IMG/VR virus record: IMGVR_UViG_3300009154_000362
Coordinates: 1-20,286 of that record
From: a virus
DNA: 20,286 bases
Reading direction: 5' to 3' (one strand)
Under the pieces are notes generated by a model. The model was not told where the DNA came from, made no database searches, and saw only the letters and a list, made by a program, of their open reading frames with translations. Both the position numbers and the translations under genes were made by a program. Positions 7,266 to 15,083 of the stretch are shown in pieces. Each line of letters starts with the position of its first letter. Positions within the stretch are counted from its first letter, which is position 1.

Positions 7266-7451
7266 TTAAGGATTTGTGACAGCGTTTAGCGTGTCGTACT
7301 CGCTCGGTGAGAGCATAGCGGCGAAGTCTTTTCCATCGCGCGTAATAATAATTATCTTATTATCATTATCAACTAGAGAGAGATAGTAATCAAAATCTCT
7401 CTCTAGTTCAGTCATATTTATTCGAATCTTACGTGATTCGTCTTCGCTCAT
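7266..7451 (-). CDS. Phd/YefM-like antitoxin-type protein, no toxin seen
   Basis: A 61-aa protein from ATG 7451, which shares one base with the upstream stop (TGATG); a longer TTG start at 7529 would run 79 bases into the neighbour and is rejected. RINMTELERDFDYYL then NKIIIITRDGKDFAAMLSPSEYDTL matches the DNA-binding N-domain of Phd/YefM antitoxins (N..eL....d.yl, I.itr.Gk..A.L.s..ey..L). The C-terminal toxin-binding tail is almost absent, and neither neighbour resembles Doc, RelE or YoeB. It could be a phage autoregulator, or an anti-toxin that neutralises a host toxin. The family call is reasonable; the role is inferred. Confidence 0.6.
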   Translation of the reverse strand: MSEDESRKIRINMTELERDFDYYLSLVDNDNKIIIITRDGKDFAAMLSPSEYDTLNAVTNP

Positions 7452-8335: not shown

Positions 8336-8411
8336 TGGTGGACCCGGCAGGACTCGAACCTGCAACCAGACCGTTATGAGCGGCCGGCTCTAACCATTGA
8401 GCTACAGGTCC
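8336..8411 (-). tRNA. tRNA with CAU anticodon, probably tRNA-Ile2 (decodes AUA)
   Basis: A 76-base cloverleaf on the minus strand with a 7-bp acceptor (one G-U), D arm GCTC/GAGC, an anticodon stem whose loop is CTCATAA, a T arm with TTCGAGT, and an encoded CCA. The CAU anticodon allows initiator Met, elongator Met or lysidine-modified Ile2. The short 8-base D loop (AATGGTTA) and variable region TGGTT resemble E. coli Ile(CAU) more than elongator Met. AUA codons are frequent in the neighbouring genes, which gives such a tRNA a purpose. The identity needs TilS-type modification and is inferred. Its first base is about 9 bases from the -10 box. Confidence 0.85.
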
Positions 8412-8419
8412 ATAACACT

Positions 8420-8448
8420 AATATACACTAGTTTAGAATATTTGTCAA
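8420..8448 (-). promoter_or_regulatory. sigma70-type promoter for the tRNA
   Basis: TTGACA (8443-8448), a 17-base spacer and TATATT (8420-8425), with the tRNA 5' end 9 bases past the -10. Transcription would start almost at the mature end, leaving little or no 5' leader. The -35 begins directly after the nuclease stop codon. It probably also feeds the downstream small ORFs and glutaredoxin. Confidence 0.75.
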
Positions 8449-8862
8449 CTATATTTTTACGTGAGCTTTGTGGACTTTAACTGATATCCAGCTGTTGTAC
8501 CACTCGTCGCTCTCGAGAACTTTGTTCTCAAACTGGTACTTTGCTTCCCAGTAGTTGCACTCGCCCTTTGTCTTACAGAGCCTGAGTATCTCTCGCTTGA
8601 AGTTGCTAGAGTGAACTCCTTCGACATTGAGATCTACCAAGAGATCTTTGCTAGACCCATAGTAGTCTTTCCAGTCGGAGTCGATCTTAACTCTCTTTCT
8701 CTTACCCTTGATCTTCTTTGATCGAGTAAACTTAAAGAGCTTCTTTCCGATGTATTTTTTATTACTGGTGAGATTAGTGATTAGATATACGAAGCCGACG
8801 TAGTCTTCAGACTCAAGATCAATAATCTCACCGTTGTATAGCCAAGGATTTTCATAAGACAT
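8449..8862 (-). CDS. GIY-YIG endonuclease (SegE-like)
   Basis: 137 aa from ATG 8862. GFVYLI (23-28) stands for GIY, KKYIGKK (35-41) for YIG, followed by a DWKDYYGSS segment (63-71), Glu106 in NYWEAKYQ as the probable catalytic glutamate, and NSWI (123-126). This matches the catalytic domain of T4 Seg-type free-standing nucleases. It probably nicks or cuts DNA, as a homing endonuclease or in host DNA breakdown; no DNA-binding domain follows, so target choice is unclear. A GTG at 8880 could add 6 residues, but the GGAGGGAG site is 7 bases before the ATG and sits in a hairpin loop (8861-8883). Confidence 0.78.
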   Translation of the reverse strand: MSYENPWLYNGEIIDLESEDYVGFVYLITNLTSNKKYIGKKLFKFTRSKKIKGKRKRVKIDSDWKDYYGSSKDLLVDLNVEGVHSSNFKREILRLCKTKGECNYWEAKYQFENKVLESDEWYNSWISVKVHKAHVKI

Positions 8863-8883
8863 AGTGGGACTCCCTCCCACTAT
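8861..8883 (-). promoter_or_regulatory. hairpin with the RBS in its loop, before the GIY-YIG gene
   Basis: On the transcribed strand ATAGTGGGA and TCCCACTAT form a perfect 9-bp stem around a 5-base loop GGGAG. The Shine-Dalgarno core is the loop, and the last two stem bases are the A and T of the start codon. No T-tract follows, so it is not a terminator. It is probably a translational operator or thermosensor-like gate. Confidence 0.6.
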
Positions 8884-8886
8884 TTA

Positions 8887-9156
8887 TTAGAACCTATCGC
8901 GATCCTGATTGTCCCAAACATCGTCCTCATCTTCGAGATAAGGAATGACGTCGTCGTCTACCTCATCTAGAGACTCATTGTATGCGCTGTCGTAGACGCT
9001 GTCGATCTTCTTTGCGGACTTTGGTTCCACATCTATATCGCTGTTATTGATAAGACTGATTAGCTCTTCATAGAGAGAGCGCCTCTCATTCTGATCCGTA
9101 ACATTTAACTTTATAGTCTCTACTAGGTCTATAAGAAATCTATCATTACGTCCCAT
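8887..9156 (-). CDS. hypothetical acidic 89-aa protein
   Basis: The N-terminal part (RFLIDLVETIKLNV, ERRSLYEELISLI) looks helical; the C-terminal half is very acidic (SLDEVDDDVIPYLEDEDD) and ends NQDRDRF. I recognise no family. The acidity recalls DNA-mimic or chaperone-like small phage proteins, but nothing else supports that. The ATG shares one base with the stop of the HNH gene (TAATG), so it is coupled. It is followed by the hairpin-controlled GIY-YIG gene. Confidence 0.5.
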   Translation of the reverse strand: MGRNDRFLIDLVETIKLNVTDQNERRSLYEELISLINNSDIDVEPKSAKKIDSVYDSAYNESLDEVDDDVIPYLEDEDDVWDNQDRDRF

Positions 9157-9629
9157 TATTTGGTCTCCACGTATTTCTTATATGCTGCGATCCAGTCCTT
9201 AGCGATCTCCTGCTGAGCGGTCTTCATGTCAACTTTTCCATCACAGATCAACTTATGTAGTCTATTCTCTAGGGCATCCTTGATGTGAGCATTGTATGGA
9301 GTTGTAGTATACGACTGAGGCCATAGATTCTTGATGTCATTTGCGCCGCCTAGCTCGAGAGAGATAAGGTGGTCGATCTCGAACTTATCGGTCGACGGAT
9401 CAATGTGGTACGCTGCGAATACTTGTTTTTTTAGTGAGTCAGGCACATTGCGTACTCCTGGCTGCGAGGTATAACCAGAAACGCAGATCATCTCCTTGGT
9501 TGCAGCCGGATTGACTACACCTGGAGTAAGCTTTGGGTCTGGCGACTGCGGAAGATCTGCAGCGAGAGCCATCGACCCAAGAGCCATGACAAAAGATAAG
9601 CTATAGAGAGAAATTCTTAAAAGTTTCAT
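9156..9629 (-). CDS. exported HNH-type nuclease with signal peptide
   Basis: 157 aa from ATG 9629 (AAGGA 9 bases upstream). Residues 1-24 are a Sec signal peptide: KLLR, then a hydrophobic ISLYSLSFVMALGSM core and an ALA cleavage site before ADLP. The mature part has LTPGVVNP (34-41), FEIDHLISLELGG (83-95) with Asp86-His87, then Asn97 and NLWPQ (101-105), the beta-beta-alpha metal HNH core. Cys49 and Cys129 could pair in the periplasm. Homologues with this layout are common in bacteria. The protein probably cuts DNA outside the cytoplasm. It overlaps the nrdB end by 29 bases; a farther start at 9656 would spoil the signal peptide. Confidence 0.8.
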   Translation of the reverse strand: MKLLRISLYSLSFVMALGSMALAADLPQSPDPKLTPGVVNPAATKEMICVSGYTSQPGVRNVPDSLKKQVFAAYHIDPSTDKFEIDHLISLELGGANDIKNLWPQSYTTTPYNAHIKDALENRLHKLICDGKVDMKTAQQEIAKDWIAAYKKYVETK

Positions 9630-10680
9630 TATTAACATCCTTCTTAACGCCACCACCTACATAGCTGGTGATCTCAGTTTCTTGTGGAGCTACCTGTACT
9701 TCAGCGCCGCTAATCCACTTCTGTGTCCACGGCAGAGGATTAGACCCAGTCTTATACGGACAGGAAAGACCAACTGCGGTCATGCGCTTATTTGCTATCC
9801 ATTCTATATATTCATTTAGTAGAGCCTTATTGAGACCGATCATAGAGCCATCTTTGAATAGATAGTTAGCCCATGCTTTCTCTTGGTCGACCGCGTCGAT
9901 GAACATCTTGATGCACTCTTCTTTAGTTTCATCACGAATAATTGCAAAGTCAGGATCATCAGTCGGCAGCACTTTAAGCAGCTGCTGAGTGCCCGCTAGA
10001 TGAAGGTTCTCATCGCGTGCGATAAGCTTGATGATCTTGGCATTACCCTCCATCTTCTTCACCTCAGCAAAAGCCCACGAGCATGCAAAGCTGACGTAGA
10101 AGCGAACACCCTCGAGAATATTGACTGACATAAGTGTCAGCCACAATGCTTTCTTATGACCATACCCGCTGTTTGAAACTGATTTGTTATTATATTCAAT
10201 AAGATCATCATAGTACTTGCTGATGTCACCAGCGCAGTCTACGATCTCCTTCATGTCCATCATACCGTCGAAGATAACCGACGGATCAGAGTATACGTTC
10301 CTAATGATGTGAGTGTAACTGCGTGAGTGGATAGATTCGCTGAATGCCCACGTAAGAATCCAGTTCTCGAGTTCAGGAAGTGAGCAGATAGGACTGAATG
10401 CTGCTGTTGGTGCGCGCCCTTGAACGGAGTCGAGAAGGATCTGTCGCTTGAGATTTGAGGTAAAGATGTGCTGCTCATGTGTGGTCAACGCCTTAAAGTC
10501 TTTTGCATCGCGATATACGTCGATCTCCTCTGGTCTCCAGAAGAAGCCGAGCTGCGACTGTGTGAGCTTCTCTAAGAATGGATACTTCTGCTTATCATAA
10601 CGAGCGATAGTTACAGGATCGTCAAAGAACGCCTTGACTTTGGTTGGATCTTTATGATTAGTTGCATCGAATACTGACAT
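9601..10680 (-). CDS. nrdB: class Ia ribonucleotide reductase beta subunit NrdB
   Basis: 359 aa from ATG 10680, which shares one base with the upstream stop; GGGAG is 6 bases before it. The di-iron and radical residues fall at the same numbers as in E. coli: Asp84 (ILLDSVQG), Glu115 and His118 (AFSESIHSRSY), Tyr122, then the later Glu in EGVRFYVSFA and the Glu/His of RDENLHL. NETFKNFSL at the end is the C-terminal peptide that docks to NrdA. It makes the tyrosyl radical used by NrdA to reduce NDPs. T4 NrdB is 388 aa. It is separated from nrdA by two small coupled ORFs. No intein or intron is seen. Confidence 0.96.
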   Translation of the reverse strand: MSVFDATNHKDPTKVKAFFDDPVTIARYDKQKYPFLEKLTQSQLGFFWRPEEIDVYRDAKDFKALTTHEQHIFTSNLKRQILLDSVQGRAPTAAFSPICSLPELENWILTWAFSESIHSRSYTHIIRNVYSDPSVIFDGMMDMKEIVDCAGDISKYYDDLIEYNNKSVSNSGYGHKKALWLTLMSVNILEGVRFYVSFACSWAFAEVKKMEGNAKIIKLIARDENLHLAGTQQLLKVLPTDDPDFAIIRDETKEECIKMFIDAVDQEKAWANYLFKDGSMIGLNKALLNEYIEWIANKRMTAVGLSCPYKTGSNPLPWTQKWISGAEVQVAPQETEITSYVGGGVKKDVNNETFKNFSL

Positions 10681-14048: not shown

Positions 14049-15083
14049 CTAAGCCCTCCTCCACCTCTGCAGCGCCATCTTAGCCTGCAGGTCCCTGTAA
14101 GTATTCTGGTCTATTATATACCGAATGAAGTCGGATGTCAACCCCGCCATCACCATGTCGTTGATGTCCTTGTGCTCGAGGTTCTCAGGCCAGATGCAGA
14201 CACCGTAGCCCTGCATGATCGCCTTGTCGATCTTCTTTATCGTATCGACCGACCTAGGCTCGTTGTCGTACACCACTACCAAGGAAGACTTATGTACGGA
14301 TAGAAGAGTACCGAGAGCAGAAACAAGATCACCGCCAGCAGTAGCAATACTATTAGGGATAAACATAGAATCAATTGGACCCTCCATCACGTAAGTCGTC
14401 TTATCGAAGTTGACGGTGTCGAGCCCATAGACCTTGGGCTGCGTGTCATCTACCACTATTGTTATATATTTGGTCTTGGACTTAGGGTTCATAGAGCGCC
14501 CCTGGAACGCATGCATCTTCTGGTCTCTATTTAAGAATGGAATAAGGAGTCTGGTCTCATCGCGCTCTAGTACAGAACCCTCGAACTTACCAGGTATGAT
14601 CTCATTGGACCATGCAAAGAAGTTAGTGCACTTGAACAGCTTTGCATGATATGGATTAGGGATATTACGATCTACAACGTACTTCTTCATACTGTCGTCA
14701 GGAGACAGCTGACTGATCTTCTTGAGGCCCTTGAACGGGCTGGACTTCATGAAAACTGGAGGCTTCATCTTCTTGACAAAGTCCTCGAGATCTACCTGCT
14801 GAGGTGACTTCTCCTCGCGCATCTTCTCCATAACGTACTCGTTGTAGAGAGACTGGTCTATAGACCTGATGAAGTTGGGAACGTTGGTGGATACGCTGCA
14901 GTTGAAGCAGTGGTACGTGAGTCTACCCTTGGTCGTGTAGATATTGCCTCTGGCCTTGCGCTTGTCAGTCTGACTGTCGCCGCATACTGGACACGAGAAG
15001 TTGTACCTGCCAGATCCCTTCCGCTTGAAGTTCCTCAGTCTACCGGATACCAATCCTATGTACTTCTCTTCTAACCAACTCAT
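14049..15083 (-). CDS. 61: DNA primase, DnaG/T4 gp61 type
   Basis: 344 aa (T4 gp61 is 342). The zinc ribbon spans about 31-62: CPVC (31-34) and HCFNC (58-62). The TOPRIM domain has MEGPIDSMF (233-241, Glu234) and VVYDNEPRS (270-278, Asp273 and Glu275). It makes RNA primers on the lagging strand, normally with a gp41-type helicase that is not in this window. It is driven by the extended -10 promoter at 15117-15144. The 3' end contains the perfect promoter for the ThyX-Nrd operon, so the coding sequence is constrained there for two reasons. Confidence 0.93.
   Translation of the reverse strand: MSWLEEKYIGLVSGRLRNFKRKGSGRYNFSCPVCGDSQTDKRKARGNIYTTKGRLTYHCFNCSVSTNVPNFIRSIDQSLYNEYVMEKMREEKSPQQVDLEDFVKKMKPPVFMKSSPFKGLKKISQLSPDDSMKKYVVDRNIPNPYHAKLFKCTNFFAWSNEIIPGKFEGSVLERDETRLLIPFLNRDQKMHAFQGRSMNPKSKTKYITIVVDDTQPKVYGLDTVNFDKTTYVMEGPIDSMFIPNSIATAGGDLVSALGTLLSVHKSSLVVVYDNEPRSVDTIKKIDKAIMQGYGVCIWPENLEHKDINDMVMAGLTSDFIRYIIDQNTYRDLQAKMALQRWRRA
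14113..14141 (-). promoter_or_regulatory. perfect sigma70 consensus promoter inside the primase 3' end
   Basis: TTGACA (14136-14141), a 17-base spacer and TATAAT (14113-14118) lie within the primase coding sequence, about 100 bases before the thyX ATG. Both hexamers match the consensus exactly. It probably drives thyX, nrdA, the two small ORFs, nrdB and the HNH gene. A short CCGA/TCGG inverted pair lies in the spacer. Confidence 0.75.

Follow-up and report, generated by a model that had tools for sequence, protein, structure and literature searches.

Control by a hairpin together with a promoter has been described for a set of homing endonuclease genes, namely I-TevI, I-TevII, I-TevIII and segB of phage T4 and mobE of Aeh1, some of which are located in or beside nrd genes (passages of PMC2988022). 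Inhibitory structures at the translation start are described for T4 e, soc, 49 and I-TevI (passages of PMC3014915), and passages of both reviews report experiments on the same arrangement for e and I-TevI. In the case of T4 e, late promoters lie in the region encoding the 5' strand of the structure, and they are predicted there in close T4 relatives as well (passages of PMC3014915). The T4 late promoter is an octamer situated about one helical turn before the transcription start, with its first base at -13, and an A at -13 is a substitution listed for nine T4 sites (passages of PMC2988020). For cyanophages, a late promoter has been reported as NATAAATA, and homologues of g55, g33 and g45 have been reported for cyanomyoviruses (passages of PMC2984593).

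Here, the whole of a 20,286-base virus record (the window) was analysed, and we propose, with a probability of roughly 85%, that one overlapping DNA element, a late promoter within a ribosome-site hairpin, acts as a temporal gate on a SegE-type nuclease. Long early transcripts would traverse the nrdA-nrdB region and continue into the SegE-type gene. On this long RNA, a 9-bp hairpin would bury the ribosome site and the start codon, so that little nuclease is made. Later in infection, the late RNA polymerase would start from AATAAATA near A8875, within the hairpin, and the late RNA (AGGGAGUCCCACUAUG...) would lack the 5' arm, leaving the ribosome site open and allowing the nuclease to be made late. 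The features involved are collected in Table 1.

Table 1 Features of the SegE-type locus and its upstream region in the window.
Feature	Position	Strand	Basis
SegE-type GIY-YIG nuclease gene, 137 aa	8449..8862	(-)	ORF and profile match
RNA hairpin: 5' arm ATAGTGGGA (8883-8875), loop GGGAG (8874-8870), 3' arm TCCCACTAT (8869-8861)	8861..8883	(-)	sequence, folds
Shine-Dalgarno-like GGGAGGGAG, extending over 5' arm and loop	8870..8878	(-)	sequence
Predicted late transcription start (+1), A8875, final base of 5' arm	8875	(-)	predicted from T4 spacing, to within about a base
T4-type late promoter AATAAATA; its final three bases double as the opening three of the 5' arm	8881..8888	(-)	motif match
Small acidic ORF immediately upstream; stop codon overlaps promoter octamer	8887..9156	(-)	ORF list
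Perfect sigma-70 consensus TTGACA-17-TATAAT, candidate early promoter	14113..14141	(-)	consensus match only

The encoded protein is assigned to the SegE GIY-YIG family PF19835 by a profile match that covers the whole domain (positions 1-123 of 123; E 1.5e-35; 122.6 bits against a cut-off of 25), and in an alignment of six sequences Tyr26, Tyr37, Gly39 and Glu106 are invariant. The PF19835 match was preferred to the PHROGs label for this family, 'NAD synthetase' (phrog_447), which was dropped. The same label is attached to the family in many of the phage records listed and is apparently a wrong name propagated for a GIY-YIG nuclease. A sequence search of solved structures returned a single match (E 0.17), which was judged to be due to chance.

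A preliminary description of this DNA had reported a 9-bp hairpin with loop GGGAG that takes the AT of the ATG into its stem. All of this is exact on the minus strand: the stem is perfect, the ATG occupies 8862-8860, and its AT supplies the final two stem bases, within a start region that reads TTCTAATAAATAGTGGGAGGGAGTCCCACTATGTCT. The description had equated the loop with the Shine-Dalgarno core, and GGGAG does lie in the loop, but the Shine-Dalgarno-like run is longer and reaches into the 5' arm. AGGGAG (8875-8870) is placed 7 nt before the ATG and would stand at the head of the predicted late RNA. Folding of positions 8840-8900, a check that the description had recommended, gives -19.4 kcal/mol on the minus strand (z -2.39), an energy equalled or bettered by 4 of 200 shuffles. 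The plus strand, which is not the coding strand of the nuclease, gives z -3.61, an energy matched by 0 of 200 shuffles. Folding energy by itself marks the hairpin as no more than moderately unusual; its repeat stands sixth among the 113 inverted repeats listed for the window (25 displayed), and Rfam at gathering thresholds matches only a tRNA (8339-8411) in the window, leaving the hairpin unmatched. The argument that it is not a chance structure comes mainly from its recurrence in relatives with altered letters, and the hairpin is confirmed as real.

The late-promoter octamer (8888-8881), which was absent from the preliminary description, is by its letters a variant of the T4 octamer with an A at -13. 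In the nearest long contig (150,648 bases, among the best 80 listed), the homologue is 70% identical and the letters of the hairpin are identical. ATAAATA emerges there, with no prior motif, as the 7-mer with the highest enrichment ahead of ORFs, at 26 of 179 where 0.74 would be expected; since it is identical when reversed, a backwards-motif control is uninformative. Ten genes behind TAAATA in this contig were scanned, and five match virion families (major head, scaffold, head-tail adaptor and, twice, tail tube), three match families of unknown function and two are unmatched.

Early read-through into the nuclease gene is plausible from the layout of the sequence. The perfect sigma-70 site is a candidate early promoter for a series of ORFs, nrdA and nrdB among them, that continues into the nuclease gene, and all ORFs longer than 139 aa in the window are on the minus strand. 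Between this site and the nuclease there are two terminator-like minus-strand matches, both weak (12846 and 9781), and the scanned region holds 8 such matches compared with 5.4 by chance. A read-through RNA would also pass through the small acidic ORF, which has no match in Pfam or PHROGs. Other features were recorded nearby on the same strand. An ORF at 9156-9656 overlaps the 3' end of nrdB, and its product resembles an HNH protein by eye and begins with a signal-peptide-like stretch; the window copy has no Pfam match, and the copy in a related contig (G001) has a sub-threshold HNH match. Directly after the nuclease gene, and before a tRNA-Met (8336-8411), a near-consensus sigma-70 site (8420-8448, 11 of 12) is a candidate early promoter of the genes that follow. 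An ORF that weakly matches a Phd-like antitoxin contains ATAAATA and, after it, a perfect 14-bp inverted repeat (7371-7421).

Opening the ribosome site is predicted to cost 12.2 kcal/mol on the read-through RNA versus 3.8 kcal/mol on the late RNA, computed with the late start set one base after A8875, and folds of short pieces give -2.8 kcal/mol for RNA from A8875 versus -13.8 kcal/mol for longer RNA. In these models, the ribosome site and AUG are held in an inhibitory helix on RNA initiated upstream, and the late promoter overlies the DNA of the 5' strand such that late RNA starting at the predicted position would not form the fold. On read-through RNA the hairpin should repress nuclease translation, and to this extent the silencing idea of the preliminary description stands as a prediction. 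The part that requires a protein, the ribosome or temperature to open the stem is not supported: release needs neither a protein nor heat, because the late RNA would begin inside the hairpin and never have the 5' arm. The published T4 logic that applies here is a late promoter that removes the 5' arm (passages of PMC2988022 and PMC3014915), and not that of the T4 hairpin operators to which the description had pointed. The release step proposed earlier is probably wrong.

Recurrence was assessed across 328 loci with a match to the family, made up of four viral-contig scans (the best 80 each of at least 595, at least 598, at least 600 and 219 confirmed relatives), 17 phage records taken in from 457 with a family match, and the window's own locus. 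Five loci with no usable start or with less than 60 nt upstream were dropped, and the remaining 323 yielded 222 distinct 60-nt upstream sequences, the window included. Of these 222, 62 have a strong hairpin that ends at the start codon, compared with a mean of 2.05 and a maximum of 4 over 20 rounds of dinucleotide shuffling. The search before homologues that the preliminary description had suggested is thus borne out, with letters changed and pairing kept. Strong hairpins accompany 48 of the 61 upstreams with TAAATA at 12-45 nt and 14 of the 161 without (Fisher p 4e-24, uncorrected for kinship). Among control genes, drawn from these loci and from the nearest contig, strong hairpins accompany 5 of 45 with TAAATA and 17 of 706 without. 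When TAAGTA and TATATA are allowed beside TAAATA, 57 of the 62 hairpins have one of these hexamers at the base of the 5' arm or close to it, and the predicted late start falls within the hairpin in all 57 (5' arm in 38, loop in 19). A Shine-Dalgarno match of at least 4 nt between -20 and -4 is found in 42 of the 57. Synechococcus phage S-SCSM1, a cultured relative, displays the same arrangement, with TCTAAATATTCCA-GACAA-TGGAATAT before its start region.

Once promoter bases are removed, the 57 promoter-bearing hairpins comprise 43 different stems, and swapped arms pair at 44%; own arms pair at 100% by construction, so only the swapped value is informative. Covariation was counted by position relative to promoter and start, as MAFFT applied to 16 upstreams put the stems wrongly. 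In a test that involves no selection for pairing, the 9 nt after TAAATA form at least 6 pairs with their own downstream DNA in 34 of 52 cases versus 10.2 with swapped partners, and in 27 of 38 versus 7.2 expected after related proteins were thinned (permutation p 1e-4 or less). The hairpin looks to be under selection, because its recurrence comes with compensatory changes, and the fact that stems vary in sequence yet stay in place over the late promoter suggests that the promoter-hairpin overlap is itself selected. On a quick protein tree the promoter changes 26 times and the hairpin 23 times; a paired correlated-evolution test on well-supported branches gave a median p of 0.5, with too few pairs (9). 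Unconserved stems lacking compensatory changes had been named in the preliminary description as evidence against its proposal. For promoter-bearing members the outcome speaks for the stem, although 147 of the 222 upstreams have neither TAAATA at 12-45 nt nor a strong hairpin.

These patterns also bear on whether the hairpin could be a translational operator or an RNA thermometer, with the stem opened by a bound protein, the ribosome or heat. The hairpin does bury the ribosome site and start codon, and T4 has protein-bound translational operators, for example those of gp43 and RegA (passages of PMC3014915). However, relatives keep the pairing and its position and not the letters of the stem, which argues against a sequence-specific protein, and the association with late promoters would go unexplained. 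With stem letters unconserved and the late promoter accounting for release, an operator or thermometer was set aside as the main reading, and we consider it very unlikely.

A U-run of at least 5 between hairpin and start codon is found in 16 of the 57 promoter-bearing hairpins, several of them from close relatives, with Synechococcus phage BUCT-ZZ01 as an example. This raises the alternative that the hairpin is a transcription terminator or mRNA-end stabiliser that overlaps the gene start by accident. However, the window hairpin has no U-run and is not among the terminator-like matches, its stem extends into the ATG, and most promoter-bearing members retain the Shine-Dalgarno match described above. 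For the window hairpin a terminator was rejected for want of a U-run, and we consider this alternative highly improbable. Under the temporal gate, a U-run palindrome could additionally terminate early RNA.

The gate is not universal among relatives. A SegE gene is present in all 17 related contigs searched (of 25), but 13 of the 17 are without TAAATA at 12-45 nt before its in-frame ATG. The other four have it, with predicted accessibility differences from 7.0 to 13.5 kcal/mol. Within the set of 222 upstreams, 13 of the 61 with TAAATA fall under the hairpin cut-off, and 14 of the hairpins have no TAAATA at 12-45 nt. At some promoterless SegE genes the start codon and the stop codon upstream share bases (TAGTG or TAATG), which may reflect translational coupling. 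Several variant layouts were also seen. In Synechococcus phage ACG-2014d (L106) and in L157, the 5' arm precedes the late promoter, placing the promoter in the loop. Four loci (L248, L250, L097 and G017 near 73937) have a hairpin ending at the ATG, such as GTACCTA-TAGA-TAGGTAC, with no TAAATA nearby. The SegE gene of Acidovorax phage ACP17 (L090, around 5001) is opposite in direction to its annotated neighbours and has CATAAATACCTCC immediately before the ATG, so that its late RNA might be nearly leaderless.

The distribution of such hairpins among other genes was surveyed in 18 sequences (2,143,657 bases, 2408 ORFs). TAAATA precedes 317 ORFs, and a strong hairpin is present at 16 of these: five SegE genes, three other nuclease-like genes (GIY-YIG/NUMOD3 in two genomes and HNH in one) and eight others. 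The survey is relevant to a further alternative, in which the hairpin is a by-product of a promoter ending in ATA near a Shine-Dalgarno sequence and a start codon (TAT), with short stems resulting from composition alone. In many members the bottom ATA/TAT pairs are indeed set by promoter and start codon, and a predicted accessibility difference of at least 4 kcal/mol is reached by 65 of 305 other late-promoter genes. However, the excess of own over swapped partners persists with only the 9 nt after TAAATA, and strong hairpins are confined to 5 of 45 other TAAATA genes in the control set and to the 16 of 317 genome-wide, 5 of which are SegE. A by-product is disfavoured, and we regard it as extremely improbable.

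Among TAAATA-preceded nuclease genes, a difference of at least 4 kcal/mol is predicted for all five SegE genes (including that of the window), all four other GIY/NUMOD3 genes and two of three HNH genes. The non-SegE nucleases, at 6 of 7, exceed the 65 of 305 other genes (rank test p 2.4e-4), although four of the seven come from one genome, which suggested the idea, and two of the other three reach 4 kcal/mol. TAAATA is missing at 12-45 nt before the in-frame ATG in 6 of 13 non-SegE nuclease matches, and some of the strongest non-nuclease cases resemble ordinary late genes (neck-like and spanin-like, named by eye). We raise only tentatively, as a somewhat doubtful extension, that promoter-in-hairpin gating is general and has evolved repeatedly for unrelated mobile-type nucleases (SegE, NUMOD3 GIY-YIG and HNH) in cyanophage-like T4 relatives, and that in one branch the hairpin is now an intrinsic terminator. 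In that branch a single palindrome would stop early RNA, hide the ribosome site and launch late RNA. If this were true, the signature could serve to find such nuclease genes without sequence homology.

Compared with the described systems, the window most closely resembles T4 I-TevI, I-TevII, I-TevIII and segB and Aeh1 mobE. As in those genes, the ribosome site would lie in a hairpin on early or middle read-through RNA, and the promoter is positioned to leave late RNA without the 5' strand. The window nuclease differs from them in being a free-standing, 137-aa SegE-type protein from a lineage related to Kyanoviridae phages; in its set, moreover, stem sequences vary between relatives, 57 distinct upstreams carry the arrangement, and some have a U-run. 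Unlike the window gene, T4 e, soc and 49 do not encode SegE-type nucleases, and the phages concerned are close T4 relatives. The cyanophage late promoter NATAAATA has the same motif as that of the window, and the passages of PMC2984593 mention no overlap with a hairpin. In the literature searched, in the passages that the sources offered, promoter-in-hairpin control is not reported for SegE-type genes of cyanophage-like phages. The combination of TAAATA, hairpin and start provides an annotation signature that is testable in public genomes, and its occurrence hints that free-standing phage endonucleases recurrently need silence until late. Thus, it is well supported that the proposed gate in the window is a device already known from T4, now found in a SegE-type gene of cyanophage-like phages, which extends a classic T4 timing device, with comparative evidence, to uncultured members of this group.
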